Translations under genes and position numbers: made by a program
From: Erythrobacteraceae bacterium
GTDB taxonomy: Bacteria; Pseudomonadota; Alphaproteobacteria; Sphingomonadales; Sphingomonadaceae
Direction: 5' to 3'
Length of the DNA: 64,000 nucleotides
Assembly: GCA_002706445.1 (NCBI GenBank)
Contig: PALE01000042.1
Span: 1-64,000 of the forward strand
Shown here: piece after piece, positions 1,734-9,352 of the stretch
How the letters are laid out: every line of letters begins with the position of its first letter
Position numbering within the stretch: the first letter of the stretch is position 1
Notes under the pieces: model-generated
What the model was told of the DNA's origin: nothing
The model's database searches: none
What the model saw: the letters and a program-made list of their open reading frames with translations, nothing else

Positions 1734-2003
1734 TCAGGTGCCCGGCGACTGGCCGTCGTCGCTGTCAGCAACCACGATGATGCCGCCGATTGCAGCAGCA
1801 ACCGCGAAGATCGCGAGGAGGATGCCGCCGTTGCCAGCAACCTTTTCACCTTCTGCATCGCGGGCGAGGCCCGGCTGTGAGGAGTTGGTGGTGTAAACCG
1901 GGGTGTTGTCGCCGGCGCGGGTGTTCGCCTGAACAGCGATCGGCGCAAGGGCCATGCTAGCTGCAGCGGCGGTCACCAGAGCGCGAGATACAGTTTTCAT
2001 CAT
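1734..2003 (-). CDS. Small secreted/membrane protein of unknown function
   Basis: 89 aa with signal peptide (MMKTVSRALVTAAAASMALAPIAVQA) and a C-terminal hydrophobic helix; ends at a terminator-like hairpin. Confidence 0.6.
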   Translation of the reverse strand: MMKTVSRALVTAAAASMALAPIAVQANTRAGDNTPVYTTNSSQPGLARDAEGEKVAGNGGILLAIFAVAAAIGGIIVVADSDDGQSPGT

Positions 2004-2165: not shown

Positions 2166-2648
2166 CTAGTCCCGCGAATCGCCCGTTTCGCGCGTATCTC
2201 CCAGAAGCAGCTGATATCGCTCGATATCTCCTCCGGTAATCACCTCTCCATCATAGAGAAGCCAGGCATGCGCACCGAATGCTCCGCCCTCCGGATGCTC
2301 GACGCCAATCTGGATTTCGCCAGCCGCCCCGAGAGATGACAGCCAATTCTGCGCTGCGATGGCCTGAATCAGGCAATCGCTTCGCCACGGCAGGCGATCC
2401 GATAGCCGCGGCACGACATAAGCGATCCGATCGAGTTTGGCCGATTCGATACGAGCCGCACTATCGGCGTTCTGCTTTGCGGTCCGATTGCGTTCAGGGA
2501 TCTCGCGTGCAGCAAGCCTTGCGAAAATCACACGTGCCCGCACCAGTTCCCAGAAAGCGCGCAGCGCATAGGGTGCCAGCCAGGGCAGGTCGGACCAGCC
2601 CGGTTTCGTGCCCTCTGCAGGAATGTGCGGTGATTGCGCGGATTTCAT
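2166..2648 (-). CDS. Lasso peptide biosynthesis B2 protein (transglutaminase-like leader peptidase)
   Basis: 160 aa with Cys in 'LPWRSDCLIQAIAAQNWL' and His in 'GAFGAHAWLLYDGEVITGG', the B2 catalytic pattern; divergent from the cyclase gene. Confidence 0.85.
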   Translation of the reverse strand: MKSAQSPHIPAEGTKPGWSDLPWLAPYALRAFWELVRARVIFARLAAREIPERNRTAKQNADSAARIESAKLDRIAYVVPRLSDRLPWRSDCLIQAIAAQNWLSSLGAAGEIQIGVEHPEGGAFGAHAWLLYDGEVITGGDIERYQLLLGDTRETGDSRD

Positions 2649-2716: not shown

Positions 2717-4606
2717 GTGTCGTTTTGGACAGTTGAAGGACGAAAATCCCACAAGGTGTCTGGTATCGGAGCCATTTTTGCGTTGGAGGGTGTGCGAGCC
2801 GATGCGCTCGAAACGATGGCCGCATCGCTTGCCGAAACGCAACACGATGACGCCGGACTCTGGCGACAGGGCACGATGGGGCTGGCTGCCACCACGCTCC
2901 ACACGACCGTCGAATCGCGCGAGCAGGTTCAGCCGCATGTTAGCAACGACGGGAAAGTCGCGGCGGTTTTTGCAGGCTTTCTCCTCAATCCCGACGAATT
3001 GATAACCGACCTGACGGCCAAAGGCGCTCCGCCAGCCAACCGCTCGGACGTCGCGATTGCGCTCGCCGCCTATGAGGCATGGGGCGATGGTTGTGCTGAG
3101 CGGATGCTCGGCGAGTTTTCGCTGATCGTCGCCGACGGCCGGCAGGGGCGCCTGTTTGTGGCGCGCGACCATCTGGGCTTTGTGCCGCTGTTCTATATGC
3201 AGGACGGGCAGCGCTTGATCATCGCGAGCGATTTCAGGACGATGGCTGCGCTCAGCGACAGGCCGCTCGAGCCGGATCACCTTTATCTGGCGCAGGCGAT
3301 CGCCAATCGCTGGTATACCCGCGATGCGACGCCGTGGCGGCAAGTGAAGCGCGTCTTGCGTGCCAATGTGATGAGCTTCGACGGCAAGCGGTTGGAGAGC
3401 CAGAGGTATTGGGAGCCGCCGACCGAAATCTCCATCCGCTACAAACGCGACGAAGACTATGTCGAACATTACCGCGAGATGCTGCTCGACTGTCTGAGGC
3501 GTGTCTCGCGTTCGGATCGCATGGTCGGCGTCGCTGTGAGCGGGGGGCTCGATTCGTCCTCCTTGTTCTGTCTGGCCGACCGGCTGGAGAAGAACGGCCA
3601 ATGGCAAGCGCCGGGTTTCGCCGGATATTCGCTGGCCGCGGGAGAAGACGGAAACGCCTACGAGCTGCCCTATGCCAGGGCGGCGGCGCGGCAAATCGGG
3701 CGATCACTCACCGAAGTGCCTTTGTTCGACCCGGATATCGATTGGTACACAAGGGACGCAGAGTGGCACCGAGACCTGGCAATACCGTCCAACGGCGCGA
3801 TGATGCTCGATCTGGAGCGGCAGGTGGTCGACGACGGCGCGCGTGTGCTCATCAACGGCAGCGGCGGCGACGAATGGCTGCAGGGCAATGCACAATATTA
3901 CCGCGAGTTTGCAAACAGTGCCGATCTGGCGGGCTTCTGGAAAGCGCTGCAACGCGACAGCGCGGCCTTTGGCTGGAGCAACGCGATCAAGCGCGCTTCG
4001 CGGCAGACTGTCGCCGAGCTCACCCCCGGACCGTTGCGCAGGGCCATCCGCCGGCGGCTGCGCGAGAACCGGCGGCGCGGCGAGCGCGAGGCAGTATGGC
4101 TCGTGCCGGAACTGCGCGCTGCTTTGGCGGAGGCAGAGGAGGCGTATGACGCGCAAATGCCCGAGAACGCGGTGCATTGGGCCAAGCATAATCTTGTGAA
4201 AGCACCGTTTTCCGACCTCACCCATACGATGATGCGGCGTCAGCGGGCGCGGATCGGTCTCGAATCGCGCCACCCGATGCTGAGTCGCGCTTTCATCGAA
4301 TTTTCCCTGCAGACGCCTGCCTACATCAAGCGGCAGGGGGCCACGACGAAAGTTGTCCACCGTCAGGCAATGGCCGGAGTCTTGCCACAGGAAATTCTGG
4401 ACAGAACCACCAAGGCTAACTTCACTAACGTCAAGATCGACGTGCAGTTTGCCGATTATGTCCGCGCGCACGGGCGCGAGCGGCTTGCGGGGATTTGCGA
4501 CCCTGAAGGATTGGAACGGGTTCTCGCGGTGGATTTCGCTTCACCGGAAGGAGATTATTGGGCTTGGGAAATTTGGGGCCTTTACGCAGGCGCAGCATTT
4601 TTGTAG
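2717..4606 (+). CDS. Asparagine synthase-like lasso cyclase (C protein)
   Basis: 629 aa, GTG start; glutaminase-like N-domain and PP-loop 'VGVAVSGGLDSSSLFCLA'; adjacent to B2 and the precursor. Confidence 0.88.
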   Translation: MSFWTVEGRKSHKVSGIGAIFALEGVRADALETMAASLAETQHDDAGLWRQGTMGLAATTLHTTVESREQVQPHVSNDGKVAAVFAGFLLNPDELITDLTAKGAPPANRSDVAIALAAYEAWGDGCAERMLGEFSLIVADGRQGRLFVARDHLGFVPLFYMQDGQRLIIASDFRTMAALSDRPLEPDHLYLAQAIANRWYTRDATPWRQVKRVLRANVMSFDGKRLESQRYWEPPTEISIRYKRDEDYVEHYREMLLDCLRRVSRSDRMVGVAVSGGLDSSSLFCLADRLEKNGQWQAPGFAGYSLAAGEDGNAYELPYARAAARQIGRSLTEVPLFDPDIDWYTRDAEWHRDLAIPSNGAMMLDLERQVVDDGARVLINGSGGDEWLQGNAQYYREFANSADLAGFWKALQRDSAAFGWSNAIKRASRQTVAELTPGPLRRAIRRRLRENRRRGEREAVWLVPELRAALAEAEEAYDAQMPENAVHWAKHNLVKAPFSDLTHTMMRRQRARIGLESRHPMLSRAFIEFSLQTPAYIKRQGATTKVVHRQAMAGVLPQEILDRTTKANFTNVKIDVQFADYVRAHGRERLAGICDPEGLERVLAVDFASPEGDYWAWEIWGLYAGAAFL

Positions 4607-4668
4607 TAGGGTCATTACTTAATAGGGATTAACCCTGCCACTGGGGTGCAACAGGACAGGAATTGAAT

Positions 4669-4797
4669 ATGACCAAGACCACTGAGAAAGCGAAATACGA
4701 AGCGCCGAAGCTGACTGTATTTGGCAGCGTTCGCAACCTCACCGGCGGCAGCGGCACCAGCTTCCGTGACGGCGCGGTGACTAACGTCCGCTTCTGA
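4669..4797 (+). CDS. Lasso peptide precursor (A), 42 aa: MTKTTEKAKYEAPKLTVFGSVRNLTG|GSGTSFRDGAVTNVRF
   Basis: Hand translated, absent from the ORF track. Leader motif Y-x2-P-x-L-x3-G-x5-T; Thr at -2 of the predicted cleavage; core Gly1 with Asp at position 8; purine-rich RBS-like 'aggacagga' upstream. Confidence 0.88.
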   Translation: MTKTTEKAKYEAPKLTVFGSVRNLTGGSGTSFRDGAVTNVRF

Positions 4798-4840
4798 TTT
4801 TTGCTTCGCGCATTGCGCGAGGTCTTTGGAACATTTGCTT

Positions 4841-4866
4841 GGGGCGCTCCGTTCGGGGCGCCCTTT
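4841..4866 (+). terminator. GC-rich stem-loop after the lasso precursor
   Basis: GGGCGCTCC-GTTC-GGGGCGCCC (9 bp with one U-G pair) then TTT; a smaller hairpin TCGCGC-ATT-GCGCGA lies just upstream. Confidence 0.55.
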
Positions 4867-5265
4867 GCATATGTGCGGGAAGCGCGGAAAACTGCGGTTT
4901 AGCGCCGTATTTGACGAGCAAAAGGCCAGCCGCGCGCTGAGCTTGGCATAATCGCACAGCCTCGTTTTCGTCTCGTGCAGTCACCGCAGGATCCAGCTTC
5001 GGCGTTGGCTTACGCGGCTACCCAAGGCAGCAAGAGGCTGTGCTGAGCGGTCCGCAAACAAGCTGATCGGTCTTTGTCACTGCCGGATGCGCGCGGCTTG
5101 CGAATCGCTTTGCTCCGAATCGGATCGGTGGCCGGCCAAGTGATTCGCGTGATGAAACAGATTTTTAAGCACTTCTGTTGGCCACTTCGCTCGAAATTGA
5201 ACGATTCGCGCTTTCCTTGTGCACTCGCCCTTGAGCCACAACCGTATTGGTCATAGCGCAACACA

Positions 5266-6138
5266 ATGGCACCCAACTGGACCCCAGAGCCCGCACGCCC
5301 GCAGCAGGAGCTGACGAGCGAGGCTTACGACCGCTGGATATCGCCCGGCGGGTTCTGTCAGGCAGAATTTCACCGGCACGCCGAGGGTTTCCTGATCCGT
5401 TTCCCTGGCCAGGCCGATTTCGTAGTCGACACCCGGCATTGCGAAAATGCGGCGCCTGCGATCACTGGCTGGCCCGTGCCCGAATGTGACGCCAAGACGG
5501 TCATCAATCTTTATCACAATGCGATCCAGCCGATCCTCGGCAATTATTCGGGCGGACTGTTCCTGCACGGGAGCGCGGTTCAGATTGCAGAAGGGGATGA
5601 AGGCGGCGCGGTCGCTTTTCTGGGCCTTTCGCGCGGCGGCAAGACAACTCTTGCAGGATCATTTGCGGCTCGCGGCTTCCCGTTTCTGACCGAGGATGTG
5701 ATCGACCTCGATCATTCGCACGGACGCTATTGGCTCCAGCCCAAACGATCGAAATTGCGGCTGTTCGTCGACAGCGCGCGGCACCTGTTGGGTGCCGAGA
5801 CGGCTTTCGATGACGAGGATCGCAAACAGGATGTGGAGGCAGGCGATGCGCTTCTTTTTGCCAGCGACCCTGCACCGCTGCGGCAAATCTATGTGCTGGG
5901 CACTGACCACGAAGCAGAGCTTTCCATCCGGCGGCTCAACCTTGCCGAAGCCCTGAGCGCGCTCATGCCGCACGCCTTCATCCTCGATGTCGAGGACAAG
6001 AAGCGGTTGCAGGCCCATTTTGCGCGTATGGCCGACCTGTCGCAGGACATCGGCTGCTATGCCCTTGACTATCGCCGCGACTATGCAGAATTGCCGCGCG
6101 TTCAGGACGCCATTCTGGACAATTTCCGCAAGGCCTAG
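5266..6138 (+). CDS. HPr kinase/phosphorylase-like lasso tailoring kinase
   Basis: P-loop 'GLSRGGKTTLAGSFA' and 'FLTEDVIDLD' motif as in HPrK-like proteins of lasso clusters. Confidence 0.78.
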   Translation: MAPNWTPEPARPQQELTSEAYDRWISPGGFCQAEFHRHAEGFLIRFPGQADFVVDTRHCENAAPAITGWPVPECDAKTVINLYHNAIQPILGNYSGGLFLHGSAVQIAEGDEGGAVAFLGLSRGGKTTLAGSFAARGFPFLTEDVIDLDHSHGRYWLQPKRSKLRLFVDSARHLLGAETAFDDEDRKQDVEAGDALLFASDPAPLRQIYVLGTDHEAELSIRRLNLAEALSALMPHAFILDVEDKKRLQAHFARMADLSQDIGCYALDYRRDYAELPRVQDAILDNFRKA

Positions 6139-6172: not shown

Positions 6173-6454
6173 ATGCAGTTGAGCGATAAATTCACGGTGT
6201 CCGGCGAAGTTGTCGCGCGCGAAATGGGCGGCGAAATGGTTCTGCTCGACCTTGCGAGCGGGCAGTATTTCGGTCTCGACCCGGTCGGCATGCGGGTCTG
6301 GGAATTGCTGTCCGAAAGCCCGCAAACGCTGGCCCAATTGTGCGATGTGATCGAAGCAGAGTTCGAGGCTCCGCGCGGCCAGATTGAGGCTGACCTGCTC
6401 GAACTGGCAAGCGAGCTGAACAAGCAGGGACTGATCGTCGCCCAAACCGCCTGA
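6173..6454 (+). CDS. PqqD-family RRE protein (lasso B1/E)
   Basis: 'GEVVAREMGGEMVLLDLASGQYFGLDPVGMRVWELLSE...TLAQLCDVIEAEFE' is a typical PqqD-like fold sequence. Confidence 0.88.
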   Translation: MQLSDKFTVSGEVVAREMGGEMVLLDLASGQYFGLDPVGMRVWELLSESPQTLAQLCDVIEAEFEAPRGQIEADLLELASELNKQGLIVAQTA

Positions 6455-6465
6455 CGGTTTAGCAC

Positions 6466-8127
6466 TCAGCTTCCCACGATGCCTCCGGGCGCAATCCGAA
6501 CCACGCGATCGGCCAAGGCGAGGCTTGCCGGGCGGTGGGTGATGATGATCACCGTATGCCCCTTGAGCGACTGAACGCAGTCTTCGACAAAGGCTGCCTC
6601 GCTTTCGAGGTCGTACATGCTGGTTGCCTCGTCGAGGATGTAGATCGGCGGGTCGCGATAGAGCGCGCGGGCGAGCGCGATGCGTTGGCGCTGGCCGCCC
6701 GACAGGCGAATGCCGTGGTCGCCGATCTCGGTGTCGAGGCCGTCGGGCAAGCTGGCGATGAAGCTGTCTGCCTGGGCCAGGCGCACCGCCGTCTTCAACC
6801 GCTCCGGATCGCCGGCGTCCGATTGGCCGAAAGCAATGTTTGCAGCGATCGTGCCGTTGAACAGCAGGGCGCGCTGCGGAACATAGCCGAATTGCCGCCG
6901 CAGGTCCTGCAATTGGTATTGCGCGATATCCGTCGCATCGAGCAGGATCGCTCCGCTGTCAGGGCGGTAGAACCCGAGCAGCAGCCGCACCAAGGTCGAT
7001 TTTCCGACTCCGTTCTCTCCGGTCAGCGCAACGATCTCGCCGGGCTTGATATCGAGATCGAGGCTCGTGAAGAGCGGCGGCCTGCCGGGATAGCCAAAGG
7101 CGACCCGGTCGAAAGTAATCGCCCCCTCGGCGCGCTCAAGCGCTTTGCCTTGCGCGTAACCCGGCTCCGGCTCCAGTTCGAGCACCGCCTCGAGCCGGGC
7201 GAGCGTGCCGCGCGCCATTTGATAGGCGCCGTACATATTGGCGAGGCTGCCGACGGGGCGGGTCAGCAGCGCGGCGTAGAGCAGGAAGGCGAACAGATCG
7301 CTTGGGCTGCTTTCGCCGCCTGCCAATTGGTCGCTCGCCAGAACCAGCACCGCAATCGCCGCGAGCGCCGCCGTCAGCGCCACCAGCGGACCGATCAGGG
7401 CATTGAGCCGCGCCTGCCCGACTGCCAGCCGACGCGAATTCTCGGCCGCGGCGCTGAATTCCGCGCGGTGTTGCTCCTCCACCGCAAAAGACTTGATCGC
7501 CGGCAGCATATCGAGATCGCGCTCGGCAATAGAGATCAGTTCGACTTCGGCGGCGCGGACTCTGGCCGAGATGCTGCGCAGGCGGCGGCCTGCAAGTTTG
7601 GTCAGGATGTAGAACACCGGGACGAGCAGCGGCACGATCATCGCCATCGCGGGATCGAGCCAAAACAGCACGATCACCGCGCCCAGAGCGGTCAGGATCA
7701 TGGCCGGGGCATTGGCGAGCGTTTCGGCCAGAAAATCGCTCAGATTCCCGACTTCGTAGGATGTCAGCGCGAGCACGTCGCCGCCGCGCGCTTCGTCGTG
7801 GAACGACAGCGGCATCATCTGGACATGGGCGTAGATCTGCTTGCGCAGATCGGTGAGAATGCGCGTCGAGGCGGTCTGCGAGACCATTGTCGCGGCGATG
7901 TTGAGCGCGGTCATGAGCACCAGCGCCGCGATCAGGGCGGTGAGGGTGAAGCCGAGGTCGATCTCTATCGGAGCGCCCGCTTCGCCGCTAACTACGCCGC
8001 CCAGCAACTGCGCCGCGAGCCAGGGGACTGCGAGCGTGGCAAGCGAGCTCAGAAGCGTCAGCCCGCTGATCAGCGCCAGCTGCCAGCGGAAGGCGCGCGC
8101 CCATTTGAGCCAGAAGCCCACGCTCAT
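6466..8127 (-). CDS. ABC transporter, fused TM+ATPase (lasso D-type exporter)
   Basis: Walker A 'GENGVGKST', signature 'LSGGQRQRIALARAL', Walker B 'IYILDEAT'; convergent with the RRE gene. Confidence 0.85.
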   Translation of the reverse strand: MSVGFWLKWARAFRWQLALISGLTLLSSLATLAVPWLAAQLLGGVVSGEAGAPIEIDLGFTLTALIAALVLMTALNIAATMVSQTASTRILTDLRKQIYAHVQMMPLSFHDEARGGDVLALTSYEVGNLSDFLAETLANAPAMILTALGAVIVLFWLDPAMAMIVPLLVPVFYILTKLAGRRLRSISARVRAAEVELISIAERDLDMLPAIKSFAVEEQHRAEFSAAAENSRRLAVGQARLNALIGPLVALTAALAAIAVLVLASDQLAGGESSPSDLFAFLLYAALLTRPVGSLANMYGAYQMARGTLARLEAVLELEPEPGYAQGKALERAEGAITFDRVAFGYPGRPPLFTSLDLDIKPGEIVALTGENGVGKSTLVRLLLGFYRPDSGAILLDATDIAQYQLQDLRRQFGYVPQRALLFNGTIAANIAFGQSDAGDPERLKTAVRLAQADSFIASLPDGLDTEIGDHGIRLSGGQRQRIALARALYRDPPIYILDEATSMYDLESEAAFVEDCVQSLKGHTVIIITHRPASLALADRVVRIAPGGIVGS

Positions 8128-8140
8128 TGTCTGTCCCCTG

Positions 8141-9352
8141 TCACCGCAGTACCCGTTTCAGCGCGCGTCCCGCTGTCCCTACCAGCGAACGGGCCTGCAG
8201 CAAGGGTGTGGGCCAATGCGCGTGATCGGGATATTTTGCGAGCAGGTGGCTGCGCGGGGGAAAGCTGCGGTCGAGCACAAGTGTCGCACGGTCGCGCCAG
8301 CTGCGGGCGCCGCGCAGATTGTGCCAGAACTCGCCGAAATCATCGCTCGCCTCGAAATAGGCCGCGACCGCCGGATCGAGCGGCTGGGCTTCGAGCTCTG
8401 CCAGCACGGCTTCGGGAAGGGGTGCGGAAAGATCGCTCGCGGCCCCGCGCAAGGCTTCGGCCACCAGCTGGCCGATCTTGCGGCTCTCGCAGAAGGTGCA
8501 AACCCTGTCCCAGTCTGCAGGTGCGAGCGCTTGTGCGATCAGGGTAAAGTCGAGCGACCAGATCAGCCGACGCGAGCCGATGACCTTGCCCTGTTCGGCA
8601 TAATAGCCGTGAACATGGTGCCATTTCTGGTTGAGCGTTTCGTGCACCAGGCTGAGCGCATGGTCGGCGCGCATGGCATTTTCGGCCAGTCGCGGAAGGG
8701 GCTGCGGGTCGGCGAAGAAATCGTCGCAAGTCAGCAGGCGCTGCAAAACCGGACGATCCGACGGCTCCCAGTGCAGGTCGAGGAAATGGGTGAAATGTCC
8801 CGCTACATCGCATCGCCAGCCTTCCTGGAAGGTGACGCCGACAGGGTCATCATTGCGATACCAGCCGCTCGAAGACAGCAGTTCCCGCGCGCGCTCGAGA
8901 TCACGGGGGCGGACGAGCAGATCGCTGTCGCCGCGGCGGCGGGCAGCAGGCTCTTCATAAAGCGAATAGGCGACTGCCGTCCCTTTCATCAGAACGGTTT
9001 CGATGCCTGCCTGGGCAAATCCGTCGATCAGCTTTGAAAGGGCATTGTGGTGGGTCGCTTCCCACAGGCCGATCAGCCGGGCCTCCTCCGCAATGCGGGC
9101 GAGCATTTTCTCCGGCCAGTTTGCAAGGCGTGCCGCATGGTGGTGCAGCAGGACGGATATGCCGTGGAACTCGATCCGCTCCCAGACTGCCGTCAGCTCC
9201 TCACGCGATGTCCATGCGCTGTCGGGAGCGGGCGGCCACGGAGCGCTCTCGCCAGCCCGAACCGCCCGCAGCGTGTCGCCAAGAAATGCGTCTATCGCGG
9301 TGGTTTCGACCATGAAGCTCTTGTGATGATGCCCGTTTCCCTGATCGTCCAT
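8141..9352 (-). CDS. Nucleotidyltransferase family protein (NTP_transf_5-like) of the lasso cluster
   Basis: 'VLMKGTAVAYSLYEEPAARRRGDSDLLVRPRDLERA' motif; immediately upstream of the exporter in the same orientation. Confidence 0.78.
   Translation of the reverse strand: MDDQGNGHHHKSFMVETTAIDAFLGDTLRAVRAGESAPWPPAPDSAWTSREELTAVWERIEFHGISVLLHHHAARLANWPEKMLARIAEEARLIGLWEATHHNALSKLIDGFAQAGIETVLMKGTAVAYSLYEEPAARRRGDSDLLVRPRDLERARELLSSSGWYRNDDPVGVTFQEGWRCDVAGHFTHFLDLHWEPSDRPVLQRLLTCDDFFADPQPLPRLAENAMRADHALSLVHETLNQKWHHVHGYYAEQGKVIGSRRLIWSLDFTLIAQALAPADWDRVCTFCESRKIGQLVAEALRGAASDLSAPLPEAVLAELEAQPLDPAVAAYFEASDDFGEFWHNLRGARSWRDRATLVLDRSFPPRSHLLAKYPDHAHWPTPLLQARSLVGTAGRALKRVLR

Follow-up and report, generated by a model that had tools for sequence, protein, structure and literature searches.

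The window (the whole 64,000-nucleotide stretch of Erythrobacteraceae DNA that was analysed) carries the following genes and features around a short open reading frame at 4669–4797.

247 to 1587: O-antigen-ligase-like gene, flanking the cluster on the B2 side
1734 to 2003, minus strand: secreted-looking protein of 89 aa with a signal-peptide-like start, found beside B2 in nearly all relatives
2166 to 2648, minus strand: B2 leader peptidase, transglutaminase-like (PF13471 and NF033537 above cutoff; Cys, His and Asp residues present)
2717 to 4606, plus strand: lasso cyclase C, asparagine-synthetase-like (PF00733; SGGLDS ATP site)
4628 to 4661, plus strand: conserved untranslated element of 34 bases, ATTAACCCTGCCACTGGGGTGCAACAGGACAGGA, ending in the ribosome site of precursor A
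4669 to 4797, plus strand: predicted lasso precursor A of 42 aa, MTKTTEKAKYEAPKLTVFGSVRNLTGGSGTSFRDGAVTNVRF; leader 1–26 (4669–4746) and core 27–42, GSGTSFRDGAVTNVRF (4747–4794)
5266 to 6138, plus strand: HprK/PEPCK-fold peptide kinase (conserved catalytic set, structure model, fold matches)
6173 to 6454, plus strand: B1, a stand-alone RRE of the PqqD family (PF05402; TbiB1 and TfuB1 structures; BsfB1, 27%)
6466 to 8127, minus strand: ABC exporter D (PF00664 and PF00005)
8141 to 9352, minus strand: nucleotidyltransferase N (PF14907; motif KGT..RRRGDSDLLV intact)
9449 onwards: opposite flank, with dTDP-sugar genes from an RmlA-type nucleotidyl transferase, an acyl carrier protein and an FkbH-like gene

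The frame at 4669–4797 had been described in an earlier note as an unannotated lasso precursor of 42 aa, and its coordinates, length and sequence were all reproduced. "Unannotated" may have been correct for the open reading frame track used at that time, but the NCBIfam model NF033521 (lasso_leader_L3) recognised the peptide above its cutoff (26.7 bits against 19); NF033528 (lasso_cyano) scored below its own (27.4 against 33 bits). An in-frame TTG also occurs six bases 5′ of the ATG at 4669. The ATG was preferred as the start because of the AGGA(A) ribosome site at 4658–4662, ~7 nt upstream of it, and because of the alignment of relatives.

Copies of the precursor were found at the equivalent locus in other genomes, with 83–93% identity for the closest orthologues (58–69% for the cyclase). 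Analysis of 15 orthologues gave dS ~1.20 and dN ~0.12 (ratio 0.098), indicating purifying selection, with ratios of 0.07 for the leader, 0.07 for the ring codons and 0.26 for the tail codons. Conservation in place, together with a dN/dS of ~0.10, showed that the frame is not a chance open reading frame. Decay does happen in the genus: in genome G103 (L086) the precursor (7621–7755, minus strand) has a stop codon at the conserved leader Tyr, and the kinase (6348–7202, minus strand) has one too. That cluster is decaying, and joint breakage of the two genes is as expected if both work together. The window copy, however, is intact, its conserved positions are invariant in a 29-sequence alignment, and co-occurrence with B1 is near-complete. 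Among 89 genomes of the genus, a strong B1 match was present in 29 of the 30 with a strong precursor match and in none of the other 59 (Fisher 1e-22); the exception, G039, has a precursor without B1 or B2. That the window frame is a chance frame or decayed relic was thus given almost no weight.

The 34-base element at 4628–4661 was identical in four relatives and near-identical in four more, as determined by blastn, despite near-saturated synonymous sites. A search of 4400–5300 against Rfam gave no credible match, one being sub-threshold and implausible, and a promoter and terminator scan found nothing exceeding shuffled expectation. A GGGG-GCA-like stretch was also seen 5′ of several of the extra precursors described below.

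B1, B2, C, the kinase, the ABC protein and the nucleotidyltransferase all adjoin precursor A and make up a complete lasso cluster. For cyclase C the best NCBIfam model was NF033535, but under its cutoff (249.6 against 525). Alignment suggested a true start near 2756, at which MCGI, with Cys2, is replaced by VSGI; C has the SGGxDS ATP-binding site and, with that start, no N-terminal glutaminase Cys, as in lasso cyclases, though it scores below the NF033535 cutoff. B1 matched solved lasso RREs (TbiB1, E 4e-12), and its Tyr32 sits where contact with leader residue −2 is implicated. The catalytic motifs of B2, C and the nucleotidyltransferase were conserved, as was the B1 Tyr, so that both the RRE and the Cys protease retain the residues characteristic of the pathway.

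The leader motif Y-x2-P-x-L-x3-G-x5-T, claimed earlier, is present as Y10, P13, L15, G19 and T25. Across 29 relatives, alignment showed Y10, P13, G19, V21, R22, L24, T25, G26, G27, S28 and D34 to be invariant. Beyond Gly35 the cores of the relatives differ in length and sequence, while the Thr-to-Asp spacing is constant; the C-terminal Arg-Phe of the core is kept in near relatives. Such conservation carries no information on the role as plugs that the earlier note suggested for Arg15 and Phe16. Asp34 is the sole acidic residue C-terminal to Thr25. Cleavage after Thr25 itself, giving a core from Gly26 in the same peptide and a 9-residue Gly1–Asp9 ring, was considered. Rings of nine residues are frequent among lasso peptides, and Gly26 is likewise invariant in the GGS family. 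In this register, however, Thr would fall at −1 and Tyr at −16, whereas characterised precursors have them at −2 and −17 (PMC10368454). Moreover, residue 26 is Ala in the more distant precursors L024, L025, L027 and L028, with the acidic residue still nine after Thr. We consider the Gly26 core improbable.

The characterised precursor BsfA has Tyr, Pro and Leu at −17, −14 and −12, its cleavage was shown by mass spectrometry, and its ring was assigned as Gly1–Asp8 (PMC10368454). Gly27 was taken as core residue 1 of precursor A because the same count, with Tyr at −17, Pro at −14 and Leu at −12, matches that of cleaved BsfA (PMC10368454). Thr25 then falls at −2 and Asp34 at 8, so that the Y-x2-P-x-L leader is combined with Thr at −2, and a small first core residue with an acidic residue within positions 7–9, as found in lasso pathways. 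The spacing of eight proposed in the earlier note, with Asp34 as the only acidic core residue, agrees with both the relatives and BsfA, and the Gly27–Asp34 register is well supported by these sequence comparisons. The four more distant precursors represent a second type in the genus, in which Glu8 replaces Asp8 and core residue 3 is Ser or Thr, as in BsfA.

With the NF033521 score, the invariant leader and core residues and the full adjacent enzyme set, the lasso assignment has held up well. We conclude that 4669–4797 very probably encodes a class II (cysteine-free) lasso peptide precursor with a Gly1–Asp8 ring, processed by the adjacent enzymes. The product would be a new lasso peptide of a kind already known, with an unusual tailoring set, and as such is a sound prediction.

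The unusual part of the set is the kinase and its possible target. Residues H101, G120, G125, K126, T127, E143 and D144 were invariant in 21 orthologues, and include the His, P-loop Gly/Lys/Ser-Thr and acidic pair of HprK-like kinases, with Glu for the first Asp; BsfK has Asp186 at this place. Matches to HprK profile models were weak. A phmmer search of the PDB gave no meaningful match for the kinase, which was therefore compared by fold; the structure model (pLDDT 90) yielded PEPCK/HprK fold matches. Detectable likeness to BsfK was confined to the region of the catalytic core (43% over 54 aa).

The bsf cluster of Bradymonas sediminis (BsfA/K/B1/B2/C/D/N; PMC10368454) has a similar gene set, including kinase, ABC protein and nucleotidyltransferase. 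BsfA and the window precursor also share the Y-x2-P-x-L at −17 to −12, the predicted Gly1–Asp8 ring and the lack of a C-terminal Ser. Paeninodin, SyanA and pseudomycoidin (PMC9266682) share the HprK-like kinase with B1, B2 and C, and pseudomycoidin additionally has the nucleotidyltransferase homologue PsmN. Paeninodin-type lasso kinases, including those of these three systems, modify a C-terminal Ser (PMC9266682). That rule is inapplicable here because the window core ends in Arg-Phe; none of the 29 aligned relatives ends in Ser. The Bsf and window kinases must act elsewhere, as neither core has a C-terminal Ser. BsfK phosphorylates a ring Ser, core Ser3 of BsfA (PMC10368454), whereas the window peptide and most relatives have Gly as core residue 3; BsfA further differs in having Ile rather than Thr at −2. 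No hydroxyl residue other than core Ser2 (Ser28 of the precursor) is conserved throughout the 29 cores, which makes Ser2 the most likely site of phosphorylation, though contacts with the leader or the protease could just as well explain its conservation. The focal peptide is thus a test case for a lasso kinase unable to use a C-terminal Ser. PsmN puts a hexose on the phospho-Ser of pseudomycoidin (PMC9266682). By analogy, the window peptide could plausibly bear a sugar on a phospho-Ser, the more so given the polysaccharide locus; the peptide is likewise a test case for the role of PF14907 nucleotidyltransferases. The bsf cluster, the closest characterised, gave no detectable mature lasso peptide in heterologous hosts (PMC10368454).

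Throughout the genus, the lasso cluster occupies a constant position inside an exopolysaccharide locus. The order Wzy, 89-aa protein, B2, C, A, kinase, B1, ABC, nucleotidyltransferase, rmlA was kept in 11 relatives, some of whose compared stretches end inside the cluster and so drop single edge genes, and in most of a further set. The relatives carry names such as Erythrobacter, Porphyrobacter, Qipengyuania, Aurantiacibacter and Alteraurantiacibacter. This fixed tie points to a cell-surface role. It would also suit a product that is no secreted lasso antibiotic, namely an unthreaded macrolactam peptide, phosphorylated or glycosylated, acting within the exopolysaccharide pathway, for instance in regulation or bound to the polymer. 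Besides the site between the O-antigen-ligase-like and dTDP-sugar genes in nearly all relatives, the kinase and nucleotidyltransferase conserved alongside and the weakly constrained tail residues are consistent with such a role. However, the full B1, B2 and C set and the core register are as in lasso pathways, and a dedicated ABC exporter is present. We regard an unthreaded product as unlikely, and favour a lasso peptide.

For the lasso peptide, we infer the following course of cleavage, modification and export. B1 would bind the leader at YEAPKLTVFG, and the kinase would phosphorylate a core hydroxyl, most likely that of Ser2, with the leader still attached. Decoration of that phosphate by the nucleotidyltransferase may follow, with PsmN of pseudomycoidin as the precedent. 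B2 would cut after Gly26, one residue past Thr25, and C would activate Asp8 and join it to the Gly1 amine, closing an 8-residue ring through which the tail GAVTNVRF would thread. The ABC protein would export the product.

Precursors also occur at a distance from the enzymes. In ten genomes (G021, G024, G030, G038, G047, G060, G108, G113, G134 and G136) there are one or two extra precursors at least 0.17 Mb away or on another contig, and G056, with a weaker second precursor match, is an eleventh candidate. All eleven have one B1, one B2 and one lasso-type cyclase; their remaining cyclase matches, at 26–29% identity, resemble general asparagine-synthetase relatives. No B1, B2, C or kinase was found within 4–5 kb of the extra precursors. 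In those extracted as L031–L037 and L071–L074 (each near position 5000), the leader, Ser2 and Asp8 are intact. Eight extra precursors occupy one site: each directly follows a sodium:solute symporter gene and is faced by a TauD-type dioxygenase gene. In G020, G130 and G140 the site is empty: dioxygenase-like sequence lies close behind the symporter gene, and no precursor separates the two. For the symporter-site precursors, pS was several-fold greater than pN over the aligned part. The window genome is ~70% complete, and the symporter gene was not found in its assembly. In G051 the cluster is split: two precursors map together with the cyclase at 2.48 Mb, and B1, B2, kinase, ABC protein and nucleotidyltransferase at 0.07 Mb, the loci (L077 and L078) being separated by 0.8 Mb or more.

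Six precursors continue into a C-terminal Peptidase_S74 domain, which is absent from the window precursor. Three of these (L038, L139, which is the same gene as L039, and L080) are at the symporter site; the others (L140–L142) are in a sister genus, inside the cluster beside C and the kinase. The domain was assigned by Pfam in the first three (26–34 bits against a cutoff of 22) and by alignment in L140–L142. A Ser, with a Lys five residues on, was invariant in all six (S52 and K57 in L139), matching the cleavage dyad of MyRF and endosialidases (S587 and K592 in MyRF, whose cleavage needs trimers; PMC8326128). Known S74 proteins trimerise beta-helical fibres, whereas in these fusions a lasso core of ~16–25 residues precedes the domain. 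A cut before the S74 Ser would leave cores of that length, in line with the 16 residues of the window core. A PDB search with an S74-fused precursor gave no match, and an AlphaFold model of one such precursor from its single sequence was discarded (pLDDT 43). In the literature searched, S74 as a built-in follower domain had no report for lasso precursors; if true, these fusions would represent a novel means of fixing the C-terminal end of a lasso peptide.

The simplest reading of the scattered precursors is that the one set of enzymes present matures them in trans. We lean towards a distributed lasso system in the Erythrobacteraceae, in which the enzymes of the exopolysaccharide locus, a single set, would mature precursors scattered over the chromosome and sharing the GSVRNLTGGS junction but with different tails, and in which some lineages would use a C-terminal self-cleaving S74 domain to release a core-sized N-terminal fragment. 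Orphan, trans-acting or S74-fused lasso precursors had no relevant report in the open-access literature searched, which is no proof of novelty. Standard mining seeks precursors only beside enzymes, so that, if maturation in trans is true, lasso repertoires per genome would be undercounted and one enzyme set could be a natural combinatorial platform. The extra precursor L037 lies near a serine-recombinase-like gene, as judged by eye from the sequence, which suggests that mobile elements can transport precursors.

In G038 and G134 an extra precursor adjoins a PRMT/PrmA-like methyltransferase of ~375 aa (L034, 5317–6435, and L071). In ten other clusters (L048–L050, L075, L077, L081, L085, L087, L089 and L090), homologues of this enzyme are placed upstream of the kinase, with C or A on their other side. 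The clade of the window is without the methyltransferase, and a gap of ~470 bases remains in the window cluster.
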